Translations under genes and position numbers: made by a program
Shown here: one piece after another, positions 678 to 54,220 of the stretch
How positions within the stretch are numbered: position 1 is the first letter of the stretch
Layout: each line of letters starts with the position of its first letter
Notes under the pieces: model-generated
The model's database searches: none
What the model was told of the DNA's origin: nothing
The model's input: the letters and a program-made list of their open reading frames with translations, nothing else
Assembly (NCBI GenBank): GCA_009829735.1
Contig: CM020620.1
Span: 26,940,951-27,004,950 of the forward strand
Reading direction: 5' to 3'
Source: Pyropia yezoensis
Lineage: Eukaryota; Rhodophyta; Bangiophyceae; Bangiales; Bangiaceae
Length of the DNA stretch: 64,000 nt

Positions 678-1040
678 TGTAGCAATATGGTTGGCCGTAT
701 TGTGACCCTAATGTTAGGGGGGCTACTTCTAATCCTTGGCTTTCAATTTGAGAGTCCGTACTGGTCACGGTATCTACAAGTTACGTATGACCAGAGGGAT
801 TTGCATCTTGGGGTGGAGGGTAGTTAGTAGTGTCTCCGAGGGTTTATAACGAGGGGGCCGGCGGCGAATCCACCGCCGGCCAAGGCAGAACAACAAACCC
901 CTCCCATGTGGGCTCCCATCTTGGTCCCGTGGCTTGTGCTTCAAGGACAGCAGCCTTGGCCTCCCGGTGACGTTGGTGCCGATCCCCCTTGGTGAGTGTT
1001 CCCTGAGAGTGGACGTGCGACGGATTCCTATTGTGCTACA
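678..1040 (+). repeat. E1 5' LTR
   Basis: 363 bp, starts TGTAGCA and ends TGCTACA (perfect 7-bp terminal inverted repeat). Nearly identical to 11056-11418. The substitutions I can see cluster in the last 100 bp. Confidence 0.95.
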
Positions 1041-1265: not shown

Positions 1266-3450
1266 ATGGCTACCCAAGAGACGAGGAACGTTCAAGATGA
1301 CGGATCGACGTCGACGCCGACCCCGGAGGTGACTACGGGAACCGGGATCGGGAACCCGATCGACAACATTGAGACGCCAATGCTTTCCGGTGCCGGATCG
1401 ACGTTTGGCACGGCTCGGACGGCAGGAGGCGGGGGTCCGCCTCAACTGTCATCGACCGACCTCACTCCGCCGCCTCCTTCACCAGGGGATTCCCTGATGG
1501 CATCATTGGCCCGCATCGAGGCCCGGTTTTCCGGGCTCGACGCCCGTCAAGATCGGACGGAAGACGCAATGGCAGTGTTGATGTCAACACGCCACACGAC
1601 GGGACCCCGACGTGTTCCTCCCACACCGGTACGGTCCGAACCGGCCGGACTACTTTTGGAGTCCACCAGGGTCAACCCCGGTGTTGCTACTCCTGGACAA
1701 CCCCCGGAAACAATGGGGTATGGATCCGACTCGTCGGCAGAGTTGGAACGGAGTCACACGGAGCGATACGCTCGGAGCACCCGAAGCGGACTCCGCGGAC
1801 ACGACCCGGCGGATACTTACGCCGGTGGAGAGTCGGTTATTGGGGGAGGGGGTACCCTCTCACAGTACCCCCACGACGAAGGAGGCCAGGCAACTCGGGC
1901 TCCCGAGGTGCCGACGCCTGAAGTACCATCTTCAGTGGTGGAAGCTATGACCGCGCAGGTAACTGCGAGCCTACTGAAGCGGATGGAGTCCGATGAGTTT
2001 TGCTCACCAACTGGCTAAGCGACTGGATACCCAGGACGCTGACACGGAGATCGTTAACGAGGTCTTCCGCTCGGTTCTTACTCCGGAACGTTATCGTTTG
2101 GAGGACCGATCTACCACCGTATCGGAATCGATGCGTAATACGTCGCACCGAGCGATTGGCTCTATGCAGACCCTTATGAAGGGAGTCCCTATGCTCGGGG
2201 GCCCCAACGGACGCCCGTTGGCAGTCATCGGCTTCTCGACCAGCTTCAAGGCAGCCGCGGACAAGGCGCTCGTCAACGAGGGGCTGGCCCTGGAGATCCT
2301 CCCTTTCTTTGTTGATGAACGGGTGCGAGGCATTCTTCGCCAGGCATCCCCGATGCCGGGAATGAGGGTCGCGGCCACCCCCATGGATTACCGTGCGATT
2401 CTCAAGGAGCTGCTGAGCAGTTACCTCAGTGAGGACAAGTGCGAGGACCACTACCGGGCCCTGCGCACTGCCACCGCCCAGAGCTGGGAGGATGAGGAGA
2501 TGTTTGGACGCCGGATCCAAGAGCTCGACTACGAGCTGGGGAAGCTCCTCGGTGAAGGGGAACTACGGGCCATCCTGTTCGCAGGAGTACCCAACTACGT
2601 GCGGATATCCGCACGGGGAGCCAATACGGCCCGGACGAACTCCAGTCGACTGATGCACATGTGCAAGTCCCTAGGGGACGCCTACCGGGTTCTACACCCG
2701 GAATGTGCCTTGGCCCCGAAGCCCAGGGGTGAGGGAGGCAAGCCCAGTCTTACCCCGGTACCGAGGCAAGAGAAGGTGGAACGTAAGGCCGCACCAGTAC
2801 TGGTGGCGACCGAACATACCCCTACGGGCGAGGATGAACCTCTAGTTGACCAACAGGGCCACCTGTTGCTACCGGCGACGCCGGTGATTGATGAGCACGG
2901 TACGGTAGCGTACATTGCTCCGGCGGGGACCCAGTTCCAGGTCAGCGAGGGCACGGGACGTCGCGTCCCGTACGTACGGACTACGGGGTACTCCCCGGTG
3001 ACGGGTAACCCTCACCAACCCTTGCCAACATGGGCGGTGCGCACGGAGGCACCCCCGCAGATTGTGGGCCGACCCAACCGGGTGGGGGAGTCCATGTTAC
3101 GGTTGACCCAAGGACCCAAGGCCTACCAGGGAGCAGGCACTCGGGCGCCTGAGGGAGGCAACCGCAGCTACGGGGCTACCCCGATGCGAACTCAAGGGGG
3201 GACCGGTACGTCCGGATGTATGCTTTGTGGGGATCCCCAACACTAGGTGTCTTCCTGCCCACTCATCTCGGAGGAGTCTCGGCGGGCAGCGGCGCAACGC
3301 AAGGCATCCACCGGGGGGTATCCCGCCAGAGCACCCGGACCCGCACCGGGTAGGCAGCCAGCTCCAGGTGGAGTACTGGCCGTCGAGGAGGCACCTCCTC
3401 AGCCGGAGGTCCCGGCGGACAGCACCCTACCAAGGGCGGGAAACGAGTAA
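1266..3450 (+). pseudogene. gag: E1 Gag, interrupted by a frameshift and a TAG codon
   Basis: Gag forms the retrotransposon capsid and nucleocapsid. The ATG at 1266 opens a Ser/Thr/Pro-rich N-terminal region that reads to a stop at 2018. Homologous coding continues in the +1 frame from about 1990 (a TTTT slip near LKRMESDE / FAHQLAKRLD). It includes a retrotransposon-gag helical block around FGRRIQELDYELGKLL and LFAGVPNYVR. The frame reaches half a zinc knuckle, CMLCGDPQH, then TAG at 3244-3246. The same frame resumes VSSC, supplying the last Cys of a C-x2-C-x4-H-x4-C knuckle, and runs to 3450. Either both breaks are mutations, or frameshifting and readthrough are used. E2 Gag has neither break, so decay is more likely. 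Confidence 0.75.
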
Positions 3451-3458
3451 GAGGAAGG

Positions 3459-6029
3459 ATGACCGGGGGGCGCTGGGGTAACCCAAGCAGGCCACCCCGG
3501 AGTACCGCGGGGAAAGCCCCACGGAGAGCGCGGTTGAGCCGACGCCGCATCAACCCCCGGGTACACCTTCCGGCCCCGACGATACGGCGTCAGGGGATTG
3601 ATGGCCAACCTCCAAGGTTGGGAGGAGAGGACGAGAAGCCTCGTCACATGGAACCTGACAAGGGCCCTGTTCAGGATGCCCGAGCTACACCGGATATCGG
3701 TGTAGGCCACGTACTGTTCACCTTGGAGAACTTCAAGGTATCAGCTACACTGGGGGTCGACCCCCAGTCGACACAATCGTACTACCCTGTACTGGATAAA
3801 GGGGCTGGACCCAACCTTATCCGGAAGGATACCCTTCCGGACAAGTGCCTTCCGCGAGTCAGAGTGACTCGGGGACCCACCATCAAGGACGCGAATGGTC
3901 GCCTTATTCGTACGACCGCAGCGATGTCGCTGCGGGTTACCATCGGGGAACTCACCACGGAAGTCGACTTCCTGGTGTGTGAGACCCTATCGGTGCCCTG
4001 CATACTGGGGTGCACCTTCATCAACGTTCACATTGATGCAATCCGGCCGGGCCGGAGGACCGTCGAGCTGCAAGAGGCCGACGGGACGAAGCGAGGACAT
4101 ACGGCTATCGTCAGGGACCTGACGCTACAAGGGAGCCACGTTAACGTGGCTGAGGTGTACGCAAGCGTCGAGCCGAAGACACTTCGGTTGGCCAAGCGAA
4201 CTCGCTTTGAGCCGTTGTCGGAGACAGTCCTCCCGGTTAACTGCGACCTCGCAGGCATCTGCAGAGTCCGGTCCAACCTGCGGACGTACAAGCGCCATGG
4301 GTTGACCATGGCCAACGGTCTCATAGACCTCCCAGCAGGAGGGTCGTCCCTCCTAGTGATGGCGAACTATCGCCGTAAGGCAGTCACCCTCCCGAAGGGA
4401 ACTATCCTCGGGATTGCCGAGCTCTACGAAGGAGATATCCTTACCCCTGACAAGGAAGGTCATGTGGAACCACTTGATGTGCTGGCGGCCGCCGAGACCA
4501 CCGAGCGACAGCAACCCGATGACGGGAAGCCTAGCCCATCGGCGGCTCCGGCGGACATGCCGCCAAAGGACCAAGAAGCCTTGAAGGCACTGGCCGAGGC
4601 TGGCCTCGACCACCTTCCCCCTTCGGTAGCCGAAGGGGTACGACGAATGCTAAGAAAGCATGACGTCATGTGGACAGGCGGGGCCTTGGGTACCATTGGG
4701 GCAACCCAACATCGTATTGACCTGGTACCAGGAGCACGCCCCGCCCGGTCACAACCGCACCGAGCGGGACCTATGCAACAAGAGATCGTTGATGGAGAAG
4801 TGAAGAGGATGAGCAAAGCTAAGGTGATCCGACCTTCGATGTCGGAGTGGGGTGCCCCAGTCGTCATCGTACCGAAGAAGGATCAAACCCCTCGGTTTTG
4901 CATCGATTATCGACGCCTCAACTTGGTTACCAAGAAGGACTCATACCCTTTACCAAGGATGGATGAATGCATCGACTCCCTGGGGGAAGCTACGGTGTTT
5001 ATCACCATCGACTGCAATGCCGGATTCTGGCAGATCCCGGTGGCGGACGAGGATATCCCCAAGACGGCATTCGTCTGTCACAGTGGAGTGTACGAGTTCC
5101 TAAGGATGCCCTTCGGATTGTCCAACGCCCCCGCTACATTCCAGCGGGCTATCGACATTATACTGTCGGGGGTGAAGTGGCGTAACTGCCTAGTGTACCT
5201 CGATGACGTCATCGTCTTCTCGCGTAACATGAATGACCATGTGCAACATGTTGACGAGGTACTCACCCTCTTGCGGAACGCCGGGGTAACCCTGCGTCTG
5301 AAGAAGTGCGCCTTCTTCCAACAGACGGTCGAGTATCTGGGCCACCAGATAACCCCTGGTAAACTAGGGGTACTCGAAGCCAATACCCGGGCACTCCGGG
5401 ATGCCCGGTTCCCTAACACCCAGACGCAGCTCAAGAGCTTCCTGGGAATGTGCAACGTATACCGACGGTTCGTCAAGGACTTCGCTCGGATAGCTAAACC
5501 GTTAACGGTTCTTACGAGTAGTACCCTGCCCAAGGTACTCCAACCCCCTTCGCCTAGCGAAGAGGAGGCACTCGAGTTGCTGAAGCGAGCCCTACTATCC
5601 CCACCCGTCCTTGCGTTACCGCACAGACGGGGTACCTTCGTCATCGATGTCGATGCATGCGATACACAAGTGGGATGCACCCTGTTACAGGGAGAGACGT
5701 TGATCGGTTCCGATAACGTTATCCCGGACCTACGTCCGGTAGGGTACTTCAGCCGGACACTCAACCCGGCTGAGCGTAACTATAGTGCCACCGAGCGTGA
5801 GTGCCTCGGAGTTATATGGGCAGTGCAACTGCTCCGTCCATACCTGGAGGGCTCCAGGTTCATCGTGAGGTCCGACCACGAGCCCCTACGATGGCTCCTC
5901 AACCTTCGTGACAAGGATTCCGATAGCCATGGGAGGCTAGCCCGACGGAGGCTGAAGATGGCCGAGCACGACTACCGTACCGTGTATAAGGCTGGGTCAA
6001 CCCACCATCTCGGAGACGCATTGTCTTGA
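3459..6029 (+). CDS. pol: E1 Pol part 1: protease, reverse transcriptase, RNase H
   Basis: 856 codons. The retropepsin region carries LDKGAGPNLI at about residues 112-121, where the active site should read D-T/S-G. The Thr/Ser to Lys change should inactivate it. Reverse transcriptase spans about residues 425-615 with FCIDYRRLN, TIDCNAGFWQIP, MPFGLSNAPATFQ and the catalytic YLDD at about 580-583. RNase H follows with the Asp-containing strand FVIDVDACD at about 730, RNYSATERECLGV and FIVRSDHEPLRW. The frame ends HHLGDALS then TGA. The next codon in the family is normally Arg (DALSR), so this looks like CGA to TGA. The same frame continues as integrase from 6030, so the native product was one polyprotein. 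Confidence 0.95.
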   Translation: MTGGRWGNPSRPPRSTAGKAPRRARLSRRRINPRVHLPAPTIRRQGIDGQPPRLGGEDEKPRHMEPDKGPVQDARATPDIGVGHVLFTLENFKVSATLGVDPQSTQSYYPVLDKGAGPNLIRKDTLPDKCLPRVRVTRGPTIKDANGRLIRTTAAMSLRVTIGELTTEVDFLVCETLSVPCILGCTFINVHIDAIRPGRRTVELQEADGTKRGHTAIVRDLTLQGSHVNVAEVYASVEPKTLRLAKRTRFEPLSETVLPVNCDLAGICRVRSNLRTYKRHGLTMANGLIDLPAGGSSLLVMANYRRKAVTLPKGTILGIAELYEGDILTPDKEGHVEPLDVLAAAETTERQQPDDGKPSPSAAPADMPPKDQEALKALAEAGLDHLPPSVAEGVRRMLRKHDVMWTGGALGTIGATQHRIDLVPGARPARSQPHRAGPMQQEIVDGEVKRMSKAKVIRPSMSEWGAPVVIVPKKDQTPRFCIDYRRLNLVTKKDSYPLPRMDECIDSLGEATVFITIDCNAGFWQIPVADEDIPKTAFVCHSGVYEFLRMPFGLSNAPATFQRAIDIILSGVKWRNCLVYLDDVIVFSRNMNDHVQHVDEVLTLLRNAGVTLRLKKCAFFQQTVEYLGHQITPGKLGVLEANTRALRDARFPNTQTQLKSFLGMCNVYRRFVKDFARIAKPLTVLTSSTLPKVLQPPSPSEEEALELLKRALLSPPVLALPHRRGTFVIDVDACDTQVGCTLLQGETLIGSDNVIPDLRPVGYFSRTLNPAERNYSATERECLGVIWAVQLLRPYLEGSRFIVRSDHEPLRWLLNLRDKDSDSHGRLARRRLKMAEHDYRTVYKAGSTHHLGDALS

Positions 6030-8204: not shown

Positions 8205-10472
8205 TTACCTCGGTGCATAGCTGGACGAGGGTGCTCCGGCCAGCCTCCACGTCCTCCAGAGCTCTCCGGAGGCGGTCAAGCACGCTCCGAAGCAACGCGC
8301 TGACCCAACCAGCGCAGCACCTGGTGGGATATCCCCCCAGCTAACAGAGAGACCCTCCCGCATTGCGCGGGCAACAAGGGCGTCAACGCCCTCATACCAG
8401 AGACGGGGGCTCCCGTCTTGTATGACAGGGGCGGGAGGGGACACTGGCGCAGCCAGAGGAGCCAGAGGAGCCGACACGGCCACCACCGGAGACGGTGGCG
8501 CCTGATATGAGGCCCGGTAGGACCCCACCGAAGGGGCTCCACCGTAACCCCGGCGGGGCTCCGCCCGACGACGGGACACCTCACGCTCCCCACCCGCAGA
8601 GCCCCACTCTCGGGGACGACGGCCAACCGCCGCCGGTATCGGGTTACCGAACCACGGGGCAAGAACCTGAAGAGGGTCAAGGATAACCATGGGAATACCC
8701 AGGTCAGGAACGGCCTCGGTGGACGCCCACCCATGGCAACTAGGCTCACCCGGCTGAGTACGCCGGATACGCAACGAGTGACGAGGCAAGGGGGAAGCCC
8801 CAGCCTGCGGATCCCGGTACAGGGGAAGGGACAACACCCCGGCCCAGTTCACGGCATCGTGAACAGCCAGCAGGGCCTCGAACTCCCGGGCCAACCCGGT
8901 CTTGGCGGCTATCAGGTCCACGCCCAACTGCGCGATGTGCCGATGGACCCCCGTCGGAAGATGAAACAGGCGCCTCTGCCGGCGGACGGACAGCAAGAAG
9001 GAGGAAGCCTGCCCGAGGGTAACCTCAAGGGTAAAGGTACCCTGCAACGGGTGAACTAGCCGGGAGGCCAACACACTCCCAAAGTATCGGAGACAGGAGC
9101 CGGTGTCAAACCGGAAAGCCGGGGCGGGTTCCCACCCCTCCTGCCACAGAGGCGGGCGCACGGGAGTGTATACCGGCGCACGACCGTTGCCGGTTTGCAA
9201 CGCACACGTTATATCGGTGCGGAACGCATCCGCCATGACACCATGGTTACGTCGCCAGCTCGACGCCGACTTCAACCCCGCCATAGGCGGGTAGGGAGCC
9301 GTCAACGACAGATACGGGGATACCCCCGGGTAATAATCGAAGTCGGGATACCGACCGGTGTCGCCCACCGTCTCCCCAAACGCAACCGGCTCCGCCGCCG
9401 CCGCAATCCCCCGTGCACTAGCCGGGTAGACAACCTCCCGCGGCATCGCGGGAGCAATCAGGTCGCATACCCCGAAGGCGGGGTCGAGGTAGACCTCACC
9501 CCGTCCCACCCGGGTGCGCCAGAGCTGCGCATGCCGGTCGTCCGGCTGACTCAGGATCCAATGGTGTTCCACTCGCACCGCGTTCGGCTGGTTGACCAGC
9601 CGCACCAACTCCCGCTCCCAGCTCGGGTCCACCTTGACGCGCCGGGAGGACTCTCCACGGGGATGGGGCAGGTGGAAGTCCACCCGCATCCGCCCATCGG
9701 ACTCCATTGACTCTTGCACAGTCAGGCCGCGAACCCGAGCCACCAAGTCGGACATCGACATGGCGGGTTGACCCGCCGCCACGGCGACGCCGCCACCCAA
9801 CGGGGCAACCCGGGCAGGACCAGGAAGAATCGGGGGCGCCGGGGGAAGCCCCACCGGCAGATGGACCGGTGCCGGAGGTGCACGGGGCCGAGGAGGAAGA
9901 AGAAGGGCGGGCGCCCGCCCGGAGTAACAACCGGAGTCCACTGCCATCGGTGTAGACCCACCTTGACCACCAGACGCCCGCGGCACCGCGGGCAGAGCAA
10001 CGCCGCCACCCGAGCCCGACGGGGGCACCTCGGGGGCAGCAGGGGTAGACCCGTCACCCGCAGCCGCGGATGAACCACCCGGGCGGGCACCCGCGTTGTC
10101 TTGACCCGCCGTCCCGGTCGGGGTGCCACCATAACCGCCCGACACGCCGGCGACGCCGTCTTGAGGTTGAGCCGCGCTGGCACCGGCGACAGGAGCCATC
10201 CGGGCCGCCGGAGGAGTAGGGGTAGACGCAGCAGCTACCCGCGGTTGCCCGCCACCCGACGGAGCCGTCGTGCCGCTGCACACGGACGACAAACCGCCCG
10301 GAGCACCGTCCGGAGCCACGCGAACGGTCACCCGGTCGCCCTCGTCTTCGGACGAGCTCGCCAAGAAACACTCGGCGGCAGTGGCAGAGACGGGAACATC
10401 GTCCACCATCATCTCCTCCTCCTCCTCAAGCAGGAGGTCGTCCTCACTCCCGGGTACCTGGGGGTCCGACAT
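8205..10472 (-). CDS. E1 antisense third ORF, unknown protein (about 755 aa)
   Basis: A long ORF on the strand opposite gag-pol, inside E1 between the chromodomain and the 3' LTR. The frame is open from 10754, but I prefer the ATG at 10472. It opens MSDPQVPGSEDD with an acidic run, followed by a Gly/Ala/Pro/Ser-rich region to about residue 250. A more ordinary folded-looking region then includes MSDLVARVRGLTVQ, VRVEHHWILSQPDDR and LEVTLGQASSFLL...RRLFHLPTGV...GVDLIAA. This last block matches the antisense ORFs of E2 and E3 (E-x-T, A, L-x-x-V, RL, LP, then L-x-VD). No known domain recognised. A promoter in or near the 3' LTR would be needed. It could be an accessory or env-like protein, or an antisense regulator (inference). 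Confidence 0.7.
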   Translation of the reverse strand: MSDPQVPGSEDDLLLEEEEEMMVDDVPVSATAAECFLASSSEDEGDRVTVRVAPDGAPGGLSSVCSGTTAPSGGGQPRVAAASTPTPPAARMAPVAGASAAQPQDGVAGVSGGYGGTPTGTAGQDNAGARPGGSSAAAGDGSTPAAPEVPPSGSGGGVALPAVPRASGGQGGSTPMAVDSGCYSGRAPALLLPPRPRAPPAPVHLPVGLPPAPPILPGPARVAPLGGGVAVAAGQPAMSMSDLVARVRGLTVQESMESDGRMRVDFHLPHPRGESSRRVKVDPSWERELVRLVNQPNAVRVEHHWILSQPDDRHAQLWRTRVGRGEVYLDPAFGVCDLIAPAMPREVVYPASARGIAAAAEPVAFGETVGDTGRYPDFDYYPGVSPYLSLTAPYPPMAGLKSASSWRRNHGVMADAFRTDITCALQTGNGRAPVYTPVRPPLWQEGWEPAPAFRFDTGSCLRYFGSVLASRLVHPLQGTFTLEVTLGQASSFLLSVRRQRRLFHLPTGVHRHIAQLGVDLIAAKTGLAREFEALLAVHDAVNWAGVLSLPLYRDPQAGASPLPRHSLRIRRTQPGEPSCHGWASTEAVPDLGIPMVILDPLQVLAPWFGNPIPAAVGRRPREWGSAGGEREVSRRRAEPRRGYGGAPSVGSYRASYQAPPSPVVAVSAPLAPLAAPVSPPAPVIQDGSPRLWYEGVDALVARAMREGLSVSWGDIPPGAALVGSARCFGACLTASGELWRTWRLAGAPSSSYAPR

Positions 10473-11043
10473 AATGACCGGGGTAGCAGGGGCGCCCCGT
10501 GCAGAAAAGCCGAGGCCGGCTCGACCCAGTACAAGGAACGCTCGCGCGGAGGAGCCAGGGAAGCGCGGGCACCCGCGCTTATAACCACACAGTTCAGCAC
10601 GAGCGATACGGCAGCGCGGGACGACCCGCGCCAGCCGGGCTACGAGGGCGCTCCACCCAGGCACCTGGACCGGAGCCACGCCCCCTCCACACGGGGTAAC
10701 CAGAGGGGTCACCCCCAACCGCCCCAACGCAACGCGGGCAACCCCGCCACCCACTCAATCGTCTCACGAGAGGGGCTCCCCTACCACCAGACACCTGGTG
10801 GCGTATCCGCTTGCACACCCCTCGGAAAGGGGGGTCGTGAACAGAAACCCGCATCGGGAAATTAACGGTCTGGAAAACGGATCGTGTGTGTACCACACAA
10901 AGAAGGGCACCCCCCTCAGGCAACCTTGAATAGGGGTGTCTGTCGCGACAGGGCGCAAAGCCCCACCCGACTGGTAAACGGTCACGCGACCCACTTACAT
11001 TCGGTAACCCGAATGCAACTCGACCCGAGGACGGGCCGAATCT

Positions 11044-11053
11044 AAGGGGGGGA
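11044..11053 (+). promoter_or_regulatory. E1 polypurine tract
   Basis: AAGGGGGGGA lies two bases before the 3' LTR TGTAGCA and should prime plus-strand DNA synthesis. E2 has a comparable AGGGAGGGAGC tract at the same place. The stretch 10755-11043, upstream of the antisense ORF, shows no gene. Confidence 0.8.
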
Positions 11054-11055
11054 TA

Positions 11056-11418
11056 TGTAGCAATATGGTTGGCCGTATTGTGACCCTAATGTTAGGGGGG
11101 CTACTTCTAATCCTTGGCTTTCAATTTGAGAGTCCGTACTGGTCACGGTATCTACAAGTTACGTATGACCAGAGGGATTTGCATCTTGGGGTGGAGGGTA
11201 GTTAGTAGTGTCTCCGAGGGTTTATAACGAGGGGGCCGGCGGCGAATCCACCGCCGGCCAAGGCAGAACAACAAACCCCTCCCATGTGGGCTCCCATCTT
11301 GGTCCCGTGGCTTGTGCTCCAAGGACTGCAACCTTGGCCTCCCGGTGACGTTGGTGCCGATCCCCCTTGGTGAGTGTTCCCTGAAAGTGGACCTGCGACG
11401 GATTCCTATCGTGCTACA
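11056..11418 (+). repeat. E1 3' LTR
   Basis: 363 bp, TGTAGCA to TGCTACA, matching 678-1040 with about six substitutions. Followed by the second GTCTT. Confidence 0.95.
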
Positions 11419-21344: not shown

Positions 21345-21913
21345 TGGTATAAAACTCGATCCTCTCCGACACGTGTCAATATCCCTCGGGGGAAAGGGAC
21401 AGGTAACACAGAAAGGGGAACTACGAGAATGGTATGCCTGTTGCCTCACGTGCCTGCTCGCAGAGCAAACAGATACGCACGGTAGTGCACACGGGGAAGA
21501 GGAAAGCAAACGCGCAGTTGTCTTTTTCGTGAGGGCGCGGGCCAAGGGCGCCTAGCTGTCCCTCTTAACGTGCATCTGGGGGAGCCTCGGCACGTTGGCC
21601 AGGTAGCCCCCCCATAACCCCGAGTGGCCCCGACCCGAGTCTAACCTCGTCAGGTCGGGGGCCACTATCACTACTAATTCTATTCCCACTCACTAATCTC
21701 ACACTCAAATTCTCTCAAATCAAGTCCCTCACAAGTATGCAAAAACCCATCAGAAATCCCTCTCTCACGTGTGGATAGCGTAGTCCACCGCATCCCAGTG
21801 CCGGGCACGGGCCACGGCCGCCAACCATCACCACACGGCGGGCGTGTTCTGGCACCTGGTGCCCTCTGGTTGTAGTCCCGGGTCAGCGCCAAGTCGGGGC
21901 CAGGGATGCTACA
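21345..21913 (-). repeat. E2 3' LTR
   Basis: 569 bp, matches 30424-30992. It lies next to the antisense ORF, which starts 185 bp away at 22098, so an antisense promoter inside this LTR is plausible. Confidence 0.93.
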
Positions 21914-22097: not shown

Positions 22098-24005
22098 ATG
22101 TCCAGTTCCGAGATCCAAGCTGGGCCCGTGGTTCCGGCGGCGAGTGTTGCGGAGGAGAACTCGGGTAGTCGCGCCCCTCTCCTGCCTCCGGTTCCTCGGG
22201 TGTCGATGTCGGCGCCGGTCGCCACGGCGGGGACGGATCGGGTTCCCCCGGCTTCTGTGATGCACCCGGTCGAGACCCCCCCGGTGGGTCTCCCGGAGAT
22301 GCTTCTTGGGCAGGACCCTCTGGCGGCCCGGCGCTACTCCACGGTGGTCGGCAACGCCGGCGCGGACCAGTGCCAGCAGGATTGCTTGGACCTCTGGCGC
22401 AAGGAACTCCAGCGCGGGGTCCTGACAGAGATGGATAAGGCTCGTCTTCACACGGCGGACCAGATGCGCCTGGCACAAGACCGCTCCCAGAGCTTCTCGA
22501 GTTCCTCCTGGGTTGCTCGTCTGGAGGATCTCCCCTTCGCGCTGGTGCTGGATCTGCCCTTGACCGAGCGTCGCGTGTCCGCGTCCGTTCTCCGGTGGCC
22601 GGAGGAGGAAGGGTACGTCCACCGGGCGCTCAAGGTCTGGGACGAGGCGCTCAAGGGGTCGGGGAGCCTGAACTGCGACCCCCGTCCGAGCATGGTCGCT
22701 CTGGAGCCGCCTTTCCTGACCCGGAAGTACTCCAAGTTGTCACCGGCACGGGAGCAAGGCGAGCGACGCGGCCGTCAGCGTGACTTCCTCGTGAGCTGCA
22801 ACCATCAGGAGTTCTGGAAGCTGGATAAGGCTAACCGGGCGGCGTACTACCCCAAGGTCATCCCGCAGCAGCAGGAAGTCGAGATCCCGGTCGGGTTTGC
22901 TCCTTCCAGCATCCCCTTCACCTGGTACCTCTTGGACGCCTTGACTCAGGCGTCGATCAAGGGCTTCTTCCACTCGATCCCGTACATGATGTACACGTCC
23001 GAGATGACAGTCTTGGCGGCCAACCACTGGCTTCACGAGGTCTTGGTGTCCAACCGGCTTTGGTTTCTCCCTGACCTCCTGATGGTCTGGATTGTCGACA
23101 AGTTGACCGTCGACTTCCTGTGCAGCCAGGACGAAGAGTACAAGGGGCTCTTCCAGGCGATGATTGACTTCCGGCGTCTGGTGCCGGTGCATGACCGGAA
23201 CTTCTTGAACGCGATTGCCGACCAGAACCGCCCGCGTCGGGATGGCTTCGGTTGGGCGCAGGTGGTCTACCAGTCTTCTCTGGCCAAGGTGCAGCTGGCG
23301 ACGCCGCTTCCGGCGTGGCCGCAGCTAGGTAGCTTTCCTGCCCCGGCCGCCCTTGATCTTCTGCCAGTTGGGCCGCCGGTGCAGGAGTCGGGATGGGCCG
23401 CGGCGGTCGGTCAGGCGTCTGCGGCGGCTCCGCTTCCTCCTGTTGCACCTGTCGCCCCGGTGGCCTCTCCTGAACCGTCGCCGGCGCGTTCACGCCCTGT
23501 TCCGGCTGTGCCGGTACTTCAAGCTCCTCCGGCACCGCGCCTGTCTGCGGCGAGTCTGGGTGTGACCGTGCGGTCGCCTACCACTCCAGCCGCTCCGCCT
23601 CGGACGCCTTCTTCCAACGCCGGCGGCGCTGTGCCTCCGCTGGAGTTGGGTACTCCGGTTTCGGGGGCCGTTGTGGACCGTCCGGTGGTGTCATCCTCGG
23701 GGCGGTTCGAGATTCCGGCGCCGACTCTCGGCCTTACCCGCTTCCGGGTGCCTGACTGGTACCTGAACCAAGGTGGCCCGACATGCGACCAGTACGACGT
23801 CGGTATGATTGAAGACCAGCTGGGTCGTCTTCCTGTGCAGGTTGAGGGCGTTGGGTCCTCCCTGGTGCTGGGTACTTACGCCAGCGTCTTGAACAACGTG
23901 GTTGACCGGGAGTTTGCTTGCGCAGACAGCGGCCAGATGTCGAACAGCCCGGTGGTTGGCGAACTTCTGGCGACCTTGACGCGGCATGGCTTGGCCCAGC
24001 AGTGA
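22098..24005 (+). CDS. E2 antisense third ORF, unknown protein (about 635 aa)
   Basis: This ORF lies opposite to gag-pol and convergent with pol, stopping 355 bp from the pol stop. I choose the ATG at 22098 (MSSSEIQAG); the frame is open upstream to 21906. It has a Pro/Ala/Ser-rich N terminus, then a well-ordered, Trp/Tyr/Leu-rich region: DCLDLWRKELQRGVLT, FALVLDLPLTERRVS, CNHQEFWKLDKANRAAYYPK, SEMTVLAANHWLHEVLVSN, RLWFLPDLLMVWIVDKLTV and FLNAIADQNRPRRDGFGW. A Pro-rich linker and a short C-terminal domain (FRVPDWYLNQGG...DQYDVGMIEDQLG) follow. The central block aligns with E3 and E1 antisense ORFs. Good codon quality and absence of stops argue for selection on the protein. Function unknown. 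Confidence 0.78.
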   Translation: MSSSEIQAGPVVPAASVAEENSGSRAPLLPPVPRVSMSAPVATAGTDRVPPASVMHPVETPPVGLPEMLLGQDPLAARRYSTVVGNAGADQCQQDCLDLWRKELQRGVLTEMDKARLHTADQMRLAQDRSQSFSSSSWVARLEDLPFALVLDLPLTERRVSASVLRWPEEEGYVHRALKVWDEALKGSGSLNCDPRPSMVALEPPFLTRKYSKLSPAREQGERRGRQRDFLVSCNHQEFWKLDKANRAAYYPKVIPQQQEVEIPVGFAPSSIPFTWYLLDALTQASIKGFFHSIPYMMYTSEMTVLAANHWLHEVLVSNRLWFLPDLLMVWIVDKLTVDFLCSQDEEYKGLFQAMIDFRRLVPVHDRNFLNAIADQNRPRRDGFGWAQVVYQSSLAKVQLATPLPAWPQLGSFPAPAALDLLPVGPPVQESGWAAAVGQASAAAPLPPVAPVAPVASPEPSPARSRPVPAVPVLQAPPAPRLSAASLGVTVRSPTTPAAPPRTPSSNAGGAVPPLELGTPVSGAVVDRPVVSSSGRFEIPAPTLGLTRFRVPDWYLNQGGPTCDQYDVGMIEDQLGRLPVQVEGVGSSLVLGTYASVLNNVVDREFACADSGQMSNSPVVGELLATLTRHGLAQQ

Positions 24006-24360: not shown

Positions 24361-27300
24361 TCAATCCTCTTGTTCCGCATCCGTTGCGTAAGAACTCGGC
24401 TCGTCCCGAGGGTCTTGGTTGGCCCCATCCTCTTGGTCCTCCTCCGAGTCCGACTCCAGAATCGTGCCGGCTCTGGCCACTGGAGTGCCCTCTATCCCGT
24501 TCCGTCGCGTGTAGGCACAGACATCCGCGATGGGTAGCCGGTTTGAGGGTTCCCAGGTATCATCTGCCGGGTTAAAACCGAACCAGCGTACTCGCAGGTA
24601 CAGGCGTCCGCCTCTCCAGGCATGGTCCACAAACTTGACGTAGACATATTCCCGACCTTCTTCTTGGGATAGCCAGGGTACTGCGGCCCGCTTGCGCCGG
24701 GTCAAGTCCCGTTGGCTTGGCGGTGGAGCTCGGGTGACATGGTCGCTGCTCACGCGGTACGGGGAGCCATCCACGTCTAGAAGAAAGGTCCAACCGTCCG
24801 TATTCAGGATCTCATAAGGTCCATCCGTCTTCGAGTCCAGCTTCCCCCGGGTCTTGCTATGGTTGTCCACAAAAACCCAGTCGCCACCACCCAGTTCCTT
24901 GTTCTTTTCCCGAACGCCCTTGTCATAGCCCCGCTTGTATCGCTCCTGGGTCTTCGAGATTGACTCCTTGACTCTTGGGAGCAGGAGCTTCAGTTGTTCC
25001 AGGAACTCATCCTTTGCCTTGGGACCTGACTTCAGTGCAGGCTGGAGACCATCTGGTATTCTTTCCAGGGAGAAGTTGGTCAGCCGCCTTGGGGTGACAA
25101 AGTCGAGTGGAGCGACTCCCGTTGTCCGGTGAACTCGGGAGTTGTAGGCTAGAGTGAGGACAGCCAGGAGCTCGTCCCAGTCTTGTTGGTGCTCCTCCAC
25201 GTAGTGCCGTAGCATGTCTACTAGGGTCCGGTTGAATCGTTCCACCTGGCCGTTCGTTTGAGGGTGGTACGTCGTAGTGTACAAGTTCTTGATGCCCATC
25301 AGGTCACAGACTCCTTGGAAGAACAGGGATGCAAACTTGGGACCGTTGTCGGTTAAGACGGAGTCTGGAGGGCCGTAGGCAGCTATCCAGTACTCGCAAA
25401 AGGCTGACGTGACATCCAGAGCCGTGATGGTCCTCAGCGGGATTGCTCGAGTGAACTTGGAGAGCCGGTCACAAATGATGAGCAGGTATACGTTGCCACT
25501 GGATGTTTCAGGTAGGGGCCCCTGGATGTCCATGCTTAAGCTTGCAAAGGGCTCCGCCGCAGGGAATAGGCGTAGCTTAGAAGTCTTCTTCCTCTGGGAC
25601 AACCGGTTCCTTGCACACGAAACACAAGCCTCCAGGTACTTATGGACGTCACTGGCCATGGTTTCCCAGTAATAGTGTCGTCTCATGGAAGCATACATCC
25701 GATTGATACCAGGATGTCCGGCCTGGGGAGACGAGTGCTCCAGGCGTAGGATGTCAGCTCGTAGGCCCCGGGGTACGTAGACTTGAGTGGCCCCATCGAA
25801 GGGTGACACCCGTACTAGGAGTCCGTCCGTAGACTCGGAGAAACGACTGTTCCGGTTCAGGTCCATTTGGTGGCGAAGCTCCAAGCATTGAGGATCCGTC
25901 AGTTGTGCCTCCAGCATCCGGTGAATGGTCACCGGTTGATGAGCTTCAGGTGTCTCATACAGGGGAGCGTGCCAGCCACGTCCGACATTCGGGAGGATGA
26001 AGCAAGGTATTTCCTCCGGGATAGGACCGGTATCGGCTGCAGGAGTCTCCAGCCGGGACATGGTGTCGGCGCAGTGGTGCTCCCTCCCTGCTCTGGTGCA
26101 CACCTTGTACTTGAACTCCGAAAGACGTAGGCGCCACCGGGCGACCCTTCTCTGACTGCTGTCCATACATAGCAGCCACCTTAGACTGGCGTGATCCGTC
26201 CGGATGAGGAACTCTTGTCCTTCAAGATATGGCCGTAACAGGAAGCAAGCCCAGACGACTGCCAAGCACTCGCGCTCCGTCGTGGAATAGTTCTTCTCGG
26301 CTAGAGTCAAGACGCGACTGTAGTAGCCTATCGGGAGAAAGTGCCCATCAGGTTGCTGCTGGAGTAGTGAGCACCCCACCTGGACGCCACAGGCATCCGT
26401 CTCCAGAACAAACTGGCCTTCCCGCTTGGGTAACGCCAGTACTGGAGTGGTGGTCAGGCGCTTCTTTAGCTCTTCGAAGGCCGCGGTCTGCTTCTCGTCG
26501 AACACCGGGAGTTGTGCGGGAAGCTTCTTGCTGGTCAGCTTGGTCAGTGGCCGGGCAATCAGAGCATAGTCCCGTACGAACCGGCGATAGACGTTGCACA
26601 TACCCAGGAAGCTCTTGAGTTCCGTCTGGGTTTTGGGTTGCCGTGCATGCCGGAGGGCCTTGATGTTCTTCTCATTGACTCGGAGCTCCCCCGGACTCAG
26701 CACATGCCCCAGATACTCCACCTCAGTTTCAAACAGGTGGCACTTCTCGGCCTTGAGGGTAACTCCAGCCTTGGACAGGAGGGCCAGGACCTCCCGAAGG
26801 TGCTCCAGGTGTTCCGCTGGGGTCTTGGAGAAAACGATAATGTCGTCCAGGTAGACCAAACATGTTCTCCACCTTAGCCCGGACAGGATGATGTCGATGG
26901 CTCTTTGGAAGGTCGCCGGAGCATTGGTGAGACCAAAAGGAAGACGCTTGCACCGGAATAGTCCCAGGTGGCACGTGAAGGTGGTCTTGTCCTTGTCCTC
27001 GTCAGCCAGAGGGATCTGCCAGTAACCGGCATTACAATCCAGCGTCGAGAAGAGGGTGGCATCACCAAGAAAGTCGAGGCAATCATCCATCCGGGGTATC
27101 GGGTATACGTCCTTGACTGTCATCTCGTTCAGGCGCCGGTAGTCAACGCAGAAACGGAAGTGACCGCCGGTTTTCGGGACGACTACCACCGGGAAAGCCC
27201 ACTCGCCATCAGACGGCTCGATAACATCCATCTTGAGCATCTTGTTAACCTGCTTCTCAATCTCATCCCGGCGATGAGGTCCGGCCCGATATGGTTGCAT

Positions 27301-28320
27301 GTGCACTGGCTTAGCTTCCGGCTTGAGTTGAATCCGGTGTAGAGTGGCGTCCATCTTGCCCAGCTCTCCCGACCACAGGTGCCGATATTCCTGGAGAAGA
27401 CTCTCCAGTGCCTCATTCAAGTCTGGAGGGACATTTTCTTGCTTGACGTTCGGCATCCCGGGTGGTGCTTGTTCGGGTTTCGGAGTAGCGCTGCCAGACT
27501 GCTCTTGTTTCGGAGGTACGTCTAAGGCCGTCAAGTTGGATGCCAGTTCTTGTAGCAGGTTCAGGAGGTCTTCCTTGCTCATAGCACGGGCGAATCCCCT
27601 GTAAGGCTCTGCTGTATCAACTCGGGTGCCCTTGGCGAGGGTTACTGGCTTCCGGCTCACGTTGACGATGAGCACCGGGAACGGGGTGTGCCTTTCTACC
27701 TTCTTGTGATGTCCGTGGGCCAAGTATAACCGGTGCTTCGCCAGAAATCCCTTACGTCCGTAGATCAGGCATTGACTTGCAATCCGGGTCGTTACTTGAA
27801 CCTTGGTCTCCGAGCGAGGAGGTAGGAGCACCGGTTTGAAGAGAGTCAAGGTGAAGGGTGGGATGCGTTCCCTCTTGCTCTTGGCTACACGAACCTTGGC
27901 GTCCAGATGCTCCAATACCGGTGACACAAACCCATGGTTGAACTGGACCTTCCCTTCTCCGGGTAGGATGCTCTTGACATGCTGCTTCTGGAAGTCCCAG
28001 CCTAGGATGAGGGGGACTGATAGGGTCTTGACTACTAGAAAGGGAAAAAGCATTGGTTCATTGTTGACATAGATGGCGACAGGAAGACGGCCAAGCGGTC
28101 GTAGGGTTTGACCCGAAGCGTCGACGATATGGGTCCGGGTAGGCGCTCTCCAGGCATGTCGACGCCAGCCCGGAGGTAACAGGTTCTCAGCGATGACGCT
28201 TGGTCCGGCTCCCGTGTCAACCACCGGCGTAACAGCTTGGGGGAGGCTATCCCCCACACGCATACGAGCATTAATCTTGAGGTTTTCTTTACGCAGGACG
28301 AGCAAAGTCCCCTTGAACAA
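24361..28320 (-). CDS. pol: E2 Pol: protease, reverse transcriptase, RNase H, integrase, chromodomain
   Basis: 1319 codons without interruption. Protease active site VVDTGAGPSVI at about residues 33-43. Reverse transcriptase has FCVDYRRLN about 390, TLDCNAGYWQIP about 426, LPFGLTNAPATFQ about 460 and catalytic YLDD about 490-493. RNase H has FVLETDACGVQVGC about 637, NYSTTERECLAVVW about 677 and RTDHASLRWLL about 707. Integrase has HSSPQAGH...CVSC zinc module about 861-902 and DDE residues in SMDIQGP (about 931), LTDNGPKF (about 991) and GQVERFNRT (about 1027). The chromodomain at about 1224-1275 includes YVYVKFVDH, YLRVRWFGF and DDTWEP. All key residues are present, so the enzyme is potentially active. 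The frame differs from gag, so frameshifting or separate initiation is required. Confidence 0.96.
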   Translation of the reverse strand: MFKGTLLVLRKENLKINARMRVGDSLPQAVTPVVDTGAGPSVIAENLLPPGWRRHAWRAPTRTHIVDASGQTLRPLGRLPVAIYVNNEPMLFPFLVVKTLSVPLILGWDFQKQHVKSILPGEGKVQFNHGFVSPVLEHLDAKVRVAKSKRERIPPFTLTLFKPVLLPPRSETKVQVTTRIASQCLIYGRKGFLAKHRLYLAHGHHKKVERHTPFPVLIVNVSRKPVTLAKGTRVDTAEPYRGFARAMSKEDLLNLLQELASNLTALDVPPKQEQSGSATPKPEQAPPGMPNVKQENVPPDLNEALESLLQEYRHLWSGELGKMDATLHRIQLKPEAKPVHMQPYRAGPHRRDEIEKQVNKMLKMDVIEPSDGEWAFPVVVVPKTGGHFRFCVDYRRLNEMTVKDVYPIPRMDDCLDFLGDATLFSTLDCNAGYWQIPLADEDKDKTTFTCHLGLFRCKRLPFGLTNAPATFQRAIDIILSGLRWRTCLVYLDDIIVFSKTPAEHLEHLREVLALLSKAGVTLKAEKCHLFETEVEYLGHVLSPGELRVNEKNIKALRHARQPKTQTELKSFLGMCNVYRRFVRDYALIARPLTKLTSKKLPAQLPVFDEKQTAAFEELKKRLTTTPVLALPKREGQFVLETDACGVQVGCSLLQQQPDGHFLPIGYYSRVLTLAEKNYSTTERECLAVVWACFLLRPYLEGQEFLIRTDHASLRWLLCMDSSQRRVARWRLRLSEFKYKVCTRAGREHHCADTMSRLETPAADTGPIPEEIPCFILPNVGRGWHAPLYETPEAHQPVTIHRMLEAQLTDPQCLELRHQMDLNRNSRFSESTDGLLVRVSPFDGATQVYVPRGLRADILRLEHSSPQAGHPGINRMYASMRRHYYWETMASDVHKYLEACVSCARNRLSQRKKTSKLRLFPAAEPFASLSMDIQGPLPETSSGNVYLLIICDRLSKFTRAIPLRTITALDVTSAFCEYWIAAYGPPDSVLTDNGPKFASLFFQGVCDLMGIKNLYTTTYHPQTNGQVERFNRTLVDMLRHYVEEHQQDWDELLAVLTLAYNSRVHRTTGVAPLDFVTPRRLTNFSLERIPDGLQPALKSGPKAKDEFLEQLKLLLPRVKESISKTQERYKRGYDKGVREKNKELGGGDWVFVDNHSKTRGKLDSKTDGPYEILNTDGWTFLLDVDGSPYRVSSDHVTRAPPPSQRDLTRRKRAAVPWLSQEEGREYVYVKFVDHAWRGGRLYLRVRWFGFNPADDTWEPSNRLPIADVCAYTRRNGIEGTPVARAGTILESDSEEDQEDGANQDPRDEPSSYATDAEQED

Positions 28321-28448: not shown

Positions 28449-30209
28449 CTACTCGTTTCCCGGGTCCGAGGAGTCCTTAGAGGTTTCGGTCTCCAGGTCA
28501 AAGTCCGTAGGAGCTTCCCTTGCCAGAGCCTCCGAGATGCTCTGTAAGGTTGCCACTCGGATTGCGTGTACCTGTGCCTGGTCCATCTTGGAGGGTGCTC
28601 GCCGGTCAGCCCAGTTGACCGCCTTTGCAAACACCAGTCCTTGACGCTTGAGTTTCTCCTGGAGGTCTTTGGGAATGGTCGGGCACTGGTAGGACATGTG
28701 ATCCTCCTTCTGGCACAGCCAACAAGACCGGAACCGCTGGTTCTTGACTTGCTTGGGGGCGACCAGGGATGGTTGCTCCTTAGAAATGAAGCCGCCCCAC
28801 TTGTCCCCTGACCCCATGGGTGTGGCCTCGCCAACTGCGAGTACCGGTACAGGGCTATCACCTCCCTTATATTTGTCGGGTCCGGGACGAACTCGCGACA
28901 ACGACTTGGGAGTTGATACCATGGGAGCTTGGAGGGCCTTGGCTTGCCGGTACTTGCCCTGGGTGTAGGCCATCAACTGCTGGAAGGTATGTTCTTGATG
29001 TTCCTGGTTGTAGTTCTCCGCATCCACTTGAAAATATTCAGGAAGCCCTTCCGAGAAGATCATCTTGAGCCTGTCCTCAGGGTAAACGTTGCCACAAGCA
29101 TCGCTCATCTCCCGGACACGACGGGCGAACGCCTCTGGAGTCTCTCGTCTTTCCATGGTTGCCCGGTTCAGCCTGCCGACTGCTTTACGCAGAGAGTCCG
29201 CGTCAGCGTAGTTGGACAGGAGCCAGTTGACCGCCTCCGGATGACTCGCGACGGTACGTCCGACAATGTGTCCGGCAGAGTCTGGCAGAACCTGTGCAAA
29301 CCGCTGTTCCGCTTCTCCGGTCATGAAGTTAACCAGGAGGTAGAGAGCCTTGCCCTCGGACACATCGTTGTCATTGCATGCCTTGACAAACCGGCGCAGG
29401 AAGGCAAAGATAAGCGCCGGTCTCTTCCCGGAAAACTTAGGATGTCCCCCGAAGCTCGGCTGCATTCGCCGTTTCAGGGACGCCATCTTCTTGGCCATCT
29501 TCCGGGTGTAACCTTGGTCTTGGTTCTCCAGCCGGTAGTTACCCCAATACGTGACCTTGTTCAGGGTGGCATCTCCCACTTGGTGGGCAGGGAAGTCAAA
29601 CTCGACTAGCCTGCGCCGGGTGGGACCGGGAGATGCATCCCAATCATATCCCTCCTCAGAGCTGGAGGAACTGGTCTCGCTGGTGCTAGAGCGACGGCGA
29701 TGACGCCGACGCCTTCGGCTGCTCCGGTTACCGGTCTTGGGGCTCCCCGCCCCATAGGATGCAAGGGGAGGAAAAGCTTGGCCGGTACCAGGAGTCGAGG
29801 TCTCAGGGAGACCCGTAGAACCAGTCACAACGGTGCCTCTGGCATCGCTAGTGCCCACAGGAAGAGGTGTATACACCCAACTGCCATGTGTGGGTCCAGG
29901 AGTAAACACATCAGGGGCTATCCCTGGAGGATGAGGAGTAGAACCGACAGGAGGGAGACGTCTGCTCCGAGCGGACTCAAACGCCGTTGACCCCGGGGTG
30001 GCTCCCACAGGAGGAACAGCCGGAGGAACGGGAGCAGGTGGTGCTTGGCCGCCTGTGGACTCCAGTCCGCTACCGGATGTCACACCCAGGTCTGCTTCAC
30101 CCGTAGGGAGAACGCCGGGTTGGGCACCGTCCCCCGCGGTGACCAGGGATGCGTCAAGGGACGCGGGGTCTACCCCTTCGGGCACCGTCGTGCCAGGGAG
30201 GGTAGCCAT
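28449..30209 (-). CDS. gag: E2 Gag
   Basis: The preferred start is the ATG at 30209 (MATLPGTTV), though the frame extends upstream to 30332. About 586 residues. A Pro/Gly/Thr-rich N-terminal third is followed by a basic Ser-rich patch (NRSSRRRRRHRRRSS). The capsid-like helical block spans QPSFGGHPKFSGKRP through FMTGEAEQRFAQV, NWLLSNYAD, TPEAFARRVREM and IFSEGLPEYFQV, the usual retrotransposon-gag layout. Near the C terminus a complete zinc knuckle CWLCQKEDHMSYQC (C-x2-C-x4-H-x4-C) should bind the genomic RNA. No interruptions. Pol starts about 130 bp downstream in a different frame. Confidence 0.9.
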   Translation of the reverse strand: MATLPGTTVPEGVDPASLDASLVTAGDGAQPGVLPTGEADLGVTSGSGLESTGGQAPPAPVPPAVPPVGATPGSTAFESARSRRLPPVGSTPHPPGIAPDVFTPGPTHGSWVYTPLPVGTSDARGTVVTGSTGLPETSTPGTGQAFPPLASYGAGSPKTGNRSSRRRRRHRRRSSTSETSSSSSEEGYDWDASPGPTRRRLVEFDFPAHQVGDATLNKVTYWGNYRLENQDQGYTRKMAKKMASLKRRMQPSFGGHPKFSGKRPALIFAFLRRFVKACNDNDVSEGKALYLLVNFMTGEAEQRFAQVLPDSAGHIVGRTVASHPEAVNWLLSNYADADSLRKAVGRLNRATMERRETPEAFARRVREMSDACGNVYPEDRLKMIFSEGLPEYFQVDAENYNQEHQEHTFQQLMAYTQGKYRQAKALQAPMVSTPKSLSRVRPGPDKYKGGDSPVPVLAVGEATPMGSGDKWGGFISKEQPSLVAPKQVKNQRFRSCWLCQKEDHMSYQCPTIPKDLQEKLKRQGLVFAKAVNWADRRAPSKMDQAQVHAIRVATLQSISEALAREAPTDFDLETETSKDSSDPGNE

Positions 30210-30400
30210 GTTGGTCTCTTGACAGCCACAGTCCAGTTGCCTGCGTGTCCAAAGACCGCCAGACCACAAGAGAGGGGTTGGAGAGCCAGGAATGGGATTC
30301 CCGTGAACGGGTGCAAATAATTCCCAAACCACAGAAAAAGACAGAACAGGAACAACCCAACCGCTGCTCCCAAATGTCTCTTCTCAAACACTCCAATCAT

Positions 30401-30423: not shown

Positions 30424-30992
30424 TGGTACAAAACTCGATCCTCTCAGACACGTGTCAATATCCCTCGGGGGAAAGGGACAGGTAACACAGAAAGGGGAAC
30501 TACGAGAATGGTATGCCTGTTGCCTCACGTGCCTGCTCGCAGAGCAAACAGATACGCTCGGTAGTGCACACGGGGAAGAGGAAAGCAAACGCGCAGTTGT
30601 CTTTTTCCTGAGGGCGCGGGCCAAGGGCGCCTCGCTGTCCCTCTTAACGTGCATCTGGGGGAGCCTCGGCACGTTGGCCAGGTAGCCCCCCCATAACCCC
30701 GAGTGGCCCCGACCCGAGTCTAACCTCGTCAGGTCGGGGGCCACTATCACTACTAATTCTATTCCCACTCACTAATCTCACACTCAAATTCTCTCAAATC
30801 AAGTCCCTCACAAGTATGCAAAAACCCATCAGAAATCCCTCTCTCACGTGTGGATAGCGTAGTCCACCGCATCCCAGTGCCGGGCACGGGCCACGGCCGC
30901 CAACCATCACCACACGGCGGGCGTGTTCTGGCACCTGGTGCCCTCTGGTTGTAGTCCCGGGTCGGCGCCAAGTCGGGGCCAGGGATGCTACA
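30424..30992 (-). repeat. E2 5' LTR
   Basis: 569 bp, near-identical to 21345-21913. It abuts a transposase exon at 30993 without a target duplication. Confidence 0.93.
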
Positions 30993-33043: not shown

Positions 33044-33895
33044 GGCACGAGAGAGCCACGCGGCTGCATGATGGTGTGCACACAAGTATCTTGTTGCATC
33101 TGACTTATTGTGCTGCCATTGAATGACATGTCACGCATTGCAAGCCATTGAACGCCGTTTGACCGTCGGGACCGAGAGAGAAGAGAGGGAGAAAGGGGAG
33201 AAATAAGAGCGAGACAGGAGTGCGAGACACCACGTCCGCCTTGATTTTGACACTTCGTAGACAAAATCAGTACTATAATCATTGTCGTTGTTTTGACAAA
33301 CGTGGTCTGAGAGGCCTCTGGGGCCTGTCCCATGACACAGGCGCACAGGCCAAGTCATTTCGGGCTGTGCCTTGGCCGTGAGAGCACGCCGAACGAGAAT
33401 CGCCGTCGCTTCATGCGCTTCGTGAATGTTAGTGCAGGCATGTGGCTCTCTCTCGTTGCTCCCAGGCGCAGCACCTACCTAGTGCTCATGATAGAGCACA
33501 GAATCCAAGAAGCCATCTGCTATCAGCCCTTCACAGGCTTCAGTTTCTCTCTGTAGCCCCCCAGCACGGAGTCAATAAGCGTCCCTGTCGCTTCTTACCA
33601 GGCAAGGCAGGGCATATTTGGGCCACTGGGGGCACTGAGGTGGACTGAGGCCCCACCCTCACGCTTGAGATGAAGTTGAAATGCTGTCCTAACCAGATTA
33701 AGAACTACCCCACGAAGCATTGATACGGATGGCCGGATGGTCGCCCGCATTTGCCTTCGTTGACTGTCATTCTGGACTGCTTTAAGACAATCTCTGTGGC
33801 AAAGTCCTCAGGCTCCCAGACTTGAAACAGAACGGTCGCAGGCAACGACGCCTGAGCATGGAAAAGACATGTAGGGTCCAAAAGATGCAGCCGAG
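33044..33895. other. Spacer without recognised features
   Basis: About 850 bp, less GC-rich than its surroundings. Only short, unconvincing ORFs. It may include the 3' end and terminal part of the Plavaka-like element. Confidence 0.6.
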
Positions 33896-45400: not shown

Positions 45401-45683
45401 GCGGCCGGCCACGACCGCCGCAGCCAGGTGCCATCATCGGCGTCGGCCGCCGACGCAGGCGCCGGCGAGCTCCTATTGTTTGCGTGACGGTGCCACCACT
45501 GCTGGTTGCATCCTTGATCATGGCACGTGCACACCTTCAACACAAGGGCTTACGCACTCTTATGCTCTCACGTGACGTTTCTGCTTTGTCTCGTGGTAGA
45601 CGTCACGCTTCATGTAGTTCACATAGCGTGCTCGGTTCCTCTACACCATGACCGTCTGGCCACAACCCAGAAAGCACTTGGCT

Positions 45684-53950: not shown

Positions 53951-53959
53951 GTTGCTGCT

Positions 53960-54205: not shown

Positions 54206-54220
54206 ACTCCATGTTCAGCG

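Follow-up and report, generated by a model that had tools for sequence, protein, structure and literature searches.

A predicted antisense third gene in chromodomain Ty3/gypsy elements of the red alga Pyropia yezoensis

Introduction

Open reading frames (ORFs) antisense to gag-pol and located between pol and the 3' long terminal repeat (LTR) are known from the plant elements Grande (gene23), RIRE2 and Retand (PMC7264820, PMC11963269). Retand is a non-chromovirus plant lineage, and TRP28 is found in 97% of Retand clusters (PMC11963269). In the literature consulted, antisense accessory genes of LTR elements are described from flowering-plant lineages and one fungal case, with their function left open; the fungal gene, brtn, lies antisense in the Boty element of Botrytis/Sclerotinia (Zhao 2011, cited in both PMC7264820 and PMC8365987). 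HBZ of HTLV-1 is a nuclear antisense gene product of a retrovirus (PMC11963269), and the HTLV antisense promoter is located in the 3' LTR (PMC7264820). Here we describe an ORF at positions 8205-10472 of a 64,000-nucleotide stretch of the P. yezoensis genome (assembly GCA_009829735.1, contig CM020620.1, positions 26,940,951 to 27,004,950; hereafter the window), which lies opposite gag-pol in a Ty3/gypsy element that we call E1.

Judged from sequence, red-algal chromodomain Ty3/gypsy elements carry the antisense gene as a resident third gene. We think it somewhat more probable than the contrary that the ORF is a selected third gene which likely encodes a nuclear accessory regulator and has a predicted promoter of its own. 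An initial annotation of the window had read the antisense ORFs of E1 and of two neighboring elements, E2 and E3, as a retained third gene (accessory, env-like or regulatory), and had named profile-profile alignment, a genome search for more copies, and the ratio of nonsynonymous to synonymous divergence (dN/dS) as checks. Its retained-gene reading is backed by homology, codon-level selection, many copies and co-divergence with pol, and its remark on antisense ORFs in Tat/Grande-type elements is borne out by the two articles cited first.

Arrangement of the antisense gene in five element types

The E1 element is organized as follows.

678..1040 (+): E1 5' LTR, 98.3% identical over 363 bp to 11056-11418
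1260-2018: ORF ahead of the gag-region ORF
1993..3246 (+): E1 gag-region ORF, between the 5' LTR and pol
3459..6029 (+): E1 pol, protease-reverse transcriptase (RT)-RNase H part; tblastn matches of 32-53% to pol ORFs in most of the loci L021-L040
6060..7625 (+): E1 pol, integrase and chromodomain-like end; PF17921 2.3e-17, PF00665 8.2e-8
8205..10472 (-): E1 antisense gene, 755 codons, convergent with pol
8847..9350 (-): conserved core common to the E1-E5 types, E1 residues 375-542
11056..11418 (+): E1 3' LTR, paired with 678-1040

The antisense frame runs on the minus strand from an ATG at 10472 to a stop codon at 8205-8207, is open upstream to 10754, and is separated by 579 nt from the pol stop (pol end 7625) and by 583 nt from the 3' LTR. 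The N-terminus of the encoded protein is of low complexity (Gly, Ala, Pro and Ser make up 58% of residues 1-230), the core is ordinary in composition (34% of residues 231-560), and the C-terminal tail of the window copy diverges from four other E1 copies past about residue 729. The E1 chromodomain scores 12.3 bits with PF00385, under the cut-off of 25.1. A Pfam scan of the gag-region ORF (1993..3246) gave no match, and a 26% tblastn match was found in L023, at the same place as the match of the E2 gag region.

E2 lies on the minus strand, and E3 is represented in the window by the integrase-chromodomain part of pol and by a split antisense gene, with no LTR pair, RT or gag found there.

21345..21913 (-): E2 3' LTR, 98.9% identical over 569 bp to 30424-30992
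22098..24005 (+): E2 antisense gene, likely start ATG 22098, frame open from 21906
24361..28320 (-): E2 pol, protease to chromodomain; RVT_1 (5.4e-36), RNase H, H2C2 and rve in order
28449..30332 (-): E2 gag-region ORF, by position; tblastn matches of 27-36% in L023, L029, L030 and L039
30424..30992 (-): E2 5' LTR, paired with 21345-21913
33875..35749 (+): E3 integrase and chromodomain; PF17921 1.2e-15, rve 1.6e-12 on ORF 33896-35752
36123..36977 (-): 285-codon C-terminal part of the split E3 antisense gene
36981..37601 (-): 207-codon N-terminal part of the same E3 gene, up to the in-frame stop
L041:352-2346: E4 antisense gene, 665-aa frame
L037:1972-4107: E5 antisense gene, 712-aa frame, located by profile

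For the E2 antisense gene the distances are 355 nt to the pol stop and 184 nt to the LTR; its database relative P0001 runs beyond the E2 stop codon. A Pfam scan of the E2 gag-region ORF gave no match. The geometry termed aORF-3R, with an ORF between pol and the 3' LTR opposite gag-pol, fits E1 and E2, as do the LTR pairs expected of Ty3/gypsy elements, and the E2 pol follows the RT, RNase H, integrase order. In E4 (L041) and E5 (L033) the antisense gene is likewise convergent with an integrase-chromodomain ORF. The E3 Chromo score of 25.3 bits exceeds the cut-off by 0.2 bits; those of E2 (18.2), E4 (19.2), E5 (20.4) and L029 (15.6) are, like that of E1, below it, all at the expected place. The claim of a long antisense ORF convergent with an integrase-chromodomain frame thus stands in full for E1 and E2 and in part for E3, where one in-frame stop splits the ORF.

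A fragment of an E4-type integrase-chromodomain ORF at 41617-42231 (+) is 93% identical to L041 over 205 aa. The window thus carries remains of a fourth antisense-bearing type, since the fragment matches the L041 E4 ORF.

Homology of the antisense proteins

The antisense protein is, by sequence comparison, homologous across the five types, with 16-32% identity between types. The core was delimited by the hhalign block together with an alignment of E1, E2, E3-type and E4 proteins, E5 being placed by BLASTP. The motif that the initial annotation had described, running from E-x-T/A-V-L to I-x-x-L-x-V-D/E, lies in this core, in the best-aligned part of the proteins; it reads as quoted in E1, E2 and E3, but the in-frame stop of the E3 copy interrupts it.

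Twenty E3-type loci (L021-L040) were chosen by eye among 150 scored E3-query places in the genome. The E2 protein matched the E3-type gene by tblastn in 16 of the 20, at 24-28% identity and E values between 6e-6 and 2e-12, the database being small and limited to the fetched loci; at 1e-5 no match was obtained in L028, L034, L037 or L040. The N-terminal piece of the window E3 gene is 28.6% identical to E2 over 91 aa (E 8e-5, three subjects). The suggested HMM-HMM alignment connected these proteins with E1: a profile of E1-type proteins (A3; three proteins of the source genome and seven database proteins) aligned with the E2/E3-type profile (A1) at an hhalign score of 63.4 (P 4.8e-7) over 161-191 colinear columns, well over the controls: 40 column shuffles gave 21.6 at best, reversed profiles 23.7 and 25.7, and pol and gag proteins no more than 25.6. 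E4/E5 scored 55.8 against the E1 profile. In a BLASTP set of about 30 proteins, E5 matched E4 (32%, 3e-40), E3-type L025 (9e-10), E1-type P0005 (1e-8), the window E1 (4e-5) and E2 (1e-4). To join E1 to E2 and E3, one needs either the profile of pooled sequences or E4 and E5 as bridges.

Selection on the antisense frame

The antisense frame is under purifying selection in the E1, E2, E3 and E5 types, less strictly than pol, and the proposed dN/dS check gave mostly 0.13-0.45 in the last three. Set against the diverged L027 copy, the E1 core gave 0.176, 0.142, 0.295 and 0.266 in four comparisons; outside the core the values were 0.38-0.41 (N-terminus) and 0.35-0.54 (C-terminus), and those of E1 copy pairs overall were 0.25-0.46. 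The L002-L027 core value of 0.142 compares with a mean of 0.855 and a minimum of 0.361 in 1000 random placements of the base changes. E2 gave 0.240 and 0.125, and E5 gave 0.257 and 0.261; of the four copies used as subjects, three contain a stop. Among 55 pairs of E3-type genes, dN/dS between subfamilies was 0.22-0.45, and that of pol 0.06-0.12, at a dS of at least 0.87 that is near saturation and more so for pol; close pairs gave 0.19-0.71 compared with 0.12-0.65 for pol.

These values bear on the possibility that the ORF is a chance antisense frame in GC-rich DNA, a spurious ORF rather than a gene. GC content is 56-79% in the 2-kb bins of the window, and 114 ORFs of at least 150 aa are present, as such an origin would have it. 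The ORF is, however, not opposite pol, and in two pairs the other five frames of the E1 core contain 2-13 stops, with dN/dS of at least 0.93 in four of the five and 0.29-0.30 in minus frame 1. Together with the homology across types, the cross-species relatives and a control chromovirus without the gene (both below), this makes a chance frame extremely improbable, and the spurious high-GC ORF was rejected on codon pattern and homology.

Selection also bears on whether the antisense RNA is what matters, in silencing gag-pol or in escape from silencing, with the protein as a by-product. Convergent transcription can yield double-stranded RNA (PMC7264820), but the selection seen here acts on the encoded protein, and we regard this explanation as improbable.

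Separately, synonymous divergence between E1 copies and L027:7481-9901 is 0.62 in the N-terminal region and 0.12-0.16 in the core, a contrast that may reflect recombination between element variants.

Co-divergence with pol

Identities of the antisense core and of the integrase-chromodomain region are strongly correlated over 15 elements (Mantel r 0.967, p <=1e-4, E5 left out). The deepest types are 16-27% identical in the antisense protein and 32-48% in pol; because close relatives dominate the Mantel matrix, joint inheritance is firmer within types than between the deepest ones. A host gene captured separately by different elements would agree with the finding that some homologs are plain hypothetical proteins of Pyropia vietnamensis, but it sits poorly with this correlation and with the same location of the gene in all five types. 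Separate captures are therefore disfavored, and we give them little credence; a single ancient capture is possible.

Copies in the genome and host range

The search for more copies covered 107,475,971 bases in 11 contigs. At least 53 E1-type places were scored, of which 20, the window copy included, are stop-free in the matched stretch, and the E3 query gave at least 150 scored matches, reaching other types such as E4 among its weakest. Pol is convergent in all eight E1-type loci (L001 is the window copy; L008 counts through 42 residues only). A convergent integrase-chromodomain match, in some cases with broken frames and with LTRs unmapped, is present in 14 of the 20 E3-type loci (L021, L022, L024-L026, L028, L029, L031, L032, L034-L036, L038, L040). 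In L023 the convergent pol is truncated, and in L037 it comes from another lineage and is probably nested; for the E3-type gene of L027, L030, L033 and L039 no convergent pol was found within the fetched stretch. An integrase search of the genome with PF17921 gave 150 scored places.

Searches of 5.8 billion proteins with three alignment queries, each scoring about 8,000 candidates, returned at least 4, 7 and 7 matches. They include hypothetical proteins of P. vietnamensis that are 46-51% identical to E1 (P0007-P0011) and one that is 33% identical to the E3-type query (P0016). Two scans of viral contigs and one of prokaryote contigs gave no relatives.

A canonical chromovirus of the same genome, which scores 53.6 bits with SH3_Tf2-1 and 54 bits with Chromo, served as a control. 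Beyond its pol stop, copies L037 and L042 have about 860 bp of sequence in common, and the antisense profile gave no match in these two copies. Long antisense frames are therefore not general in the elements of this GC-rich genome.

Properties of the encoded protein

Pfam, PHROG and PDB searches found no supported relative of the antisense proteins. Sub-cut-off Pfam values were 0.006-0.007 for DUF6214 in three of ten E1-type members, outside the core, and 0.052 for DUF3323 in P0016; the best PDB E value was 0.11. In the E3-type AlphaFold model, only about residues 197-290, which are helical and bear the motif, reach block means of up to 77. Arginine-rich stretches lie C-terminal to the core in E1 (RRRAEPRRGYGG), in the E2 relative P0001 and in E5; these stretches and a soluble composition suggest that the protein may be imported into the nucleus.

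The env-like option of the initial annotation did not hold up. A location after pol is where retroviruses have their envelope gene, but the gene is antisense, and in 11 of 11 antisense proteins (some from truncated copies; E5 left out) the 19-residue hydropathy maximum is 0.98-1.55, there are zero or one glycosylation sequons, and no clear N-terminal signal-like stretch is seen (highest 0.96, in E1). An env-like protein was rejected on these grounds, and an envelope-like or other membrane protein is very improbable.

A second gag in reverse orientation was likewise rejected, as profile scores of 14.4-25.6 were no better than reversed controls. These scores also count against a broader proposal, that the gene makes a structural or packaging protein such as a second particle component or a chaperone, and antisense transcription would part such a protein from the gag-pol RNA. 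The protein is nevertheless large, evolves fast relative to pol, accompanies pol in all five types and has no known DNA-binding domain, as a structural component might; we consider this role unlikely, though worth keeping in view.

A candidate antisense promoter

Two features upstream of the E1 antisense gene concern its predicted expression.

10473..11055 (-): leader between the antisense ATG and the 3' LTR, 583 nt, predicted by geometry as the antisense promoter region
10576..10583 (-): TATAAGCG box, a candidate for the core promoter, 111 nt ahead of the antisense ATG

The TATAAGCG box is present in five of six E1-type starts, with the variant CATAAGCG in the sixth; the corresponding sequences are TATAAGCGCG at -111 in the five and CATAAGCGCG in the other. 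In three E3 subfamilies ATAAG[AC]G stands ahead of a GC-rich block and TCCCT (-177 to -246), and the box is found upstream of 12 of 18 antisense starts in all. Counting both strands, the window has 13 occurrences of the 7-mer WTAAGMG. As for an antisense promoter in the LTR, no ATAAG occurs in the E1 or E2 LTR; TATAA occurs on both strands of the E1 LTR and is absent from the E2 LTR.

Boxes like that of the antisense leader were also seen in the sense LTRs, GTTAAGAGGG in E2 (30424-30992) and TTTATAACGAGGGG in E1 (678-1040). The LTR and leader boxes perhaps represent a shared core promoter type of the alga.

Other features of the window

A KDZ (Kyakuja-Dileera-Zisupton) transposase is encoded at 45684-47987 (-), with PF18758 over its cut-off at 30.9 bits. 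A 1235-codon ORF at 53138-56845 (+), possibly a mobile-element helicase, encodes a long N-terminal part followed by a PIF1-like helicase domain (53 bits). A tandem array of about 131-bp units occupies 43612-45410; the bin 44001-46000 is 79% GC.

Discussion

The antisense protein is likely a nuclear accessory regulator of its own element. The antisense transcript would start at the predicted internal promoter between the ATG and the 3' LTR, the protein would enter the nucleus, and this self-encoded regulator would act on the element's transcription, RNA export or integration. Similar roles have been proposed for the plant Grande/Retand antisense proteins and are described for HTLV HBZ.

Several observations weigh against parts of this account. 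At the level of homology, E1 and E2 show no significant match as single proteins (E 0.036), E2 alone scores 34.8 against the E1 profile (P 0.003) and aligns at a wrong, low-complexity place, and E3 alone reaches just 40.4 (P 6e-4). As to constraint, 33 of the 53 E1-type copies have at least one stop, antisense dN/dS between subfamilies is about three to five times that of pol, four of the 55 E3-type pairs, all close, lie at 0.48-0.71, and one further antisense-only pair gave 0.81 at a dS of 0.03. The AlphaFold models are poor (pLDDT 29.4 for the E1 core, 41.8 for the E3 type), a PDB fold search with the E3-type model gave no match at E <3, and Pfam found no nuclear-localization or DNA-binding domain. 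The leader is 96-97% identical on average among eight copies, equal to neighboring parts, and so shows no special constraint; the box is absent from six of the 18 starts (E2, E4, E5, L027/L036 and L010), and its motif was picked after the sequences had been inspected. For these last three reasons the box is a candidate only.

Grande, RIRE2 and Retand are the closest in arrangement: in these Ty3/gypsy elements, too, a conserved gene antisense to gag-pol lies between pol and the 3' LTR. Retand differs in its protein, TRP28 (PF04195): the red-algal antisense proteins gave no PF04195 match at E <=1 in sets of 2, 12, 10 and 5 proteins and belong to another family. Boty, by its description, resembles the red-algal elements as a non-plant element with an antisense gene. 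HBZ is similarly an antisense gene of a retroelement, set apart by Pfam rather than by sequence comparison: the red-algal proteins have no bZIP or other supported domain by Pfam, and their candidate promoter is internal, whereas that of HTLV is in the 3' LTR. With the chromoviruses (Chlamyvir, Tcn1, CRM, Reina, Tekay, Galadriel) the E1-E5 elements share an integrase that ends in a predicted chromodomain, over the Pfam cut-off in E3, and differ in a weak Chromo score (12.3-25.3 bits) and in the extra gene.

Among the literature matches listed, no antisense gene was reported in chromodomain elements, with Boty as a possible exception, and the available portions of PMC11963269, PMC7264820, PMC12477816, PMC6317226, PMC8365987, PMC2774666 and PMC2864245 do not describe the red-algal antisense gene. 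Because the antisense arrangement is known from plant elements, only the protein family, the red-algal host group and the chromodomain-bearing elements appear to be new.

More tentatively, and at slightly under an even chance, the ambisense red-algal elements may hold an ancient, new family of regulators, expressed from an internal promoter, passed down together with pol from before the divergence of the five types, and evolved independently of the plant Tat/Grande and retroviral genes. The five types in at least two host species form a comparative set for conserved residues and for the candidate promoter, and the canonical chromovirus of the same genome offers a natural comparison without the gene. 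A deeply conserved family of this kind, without a known relative, would imply that ambisense coding had more than one origin or a much greater age than assumed.

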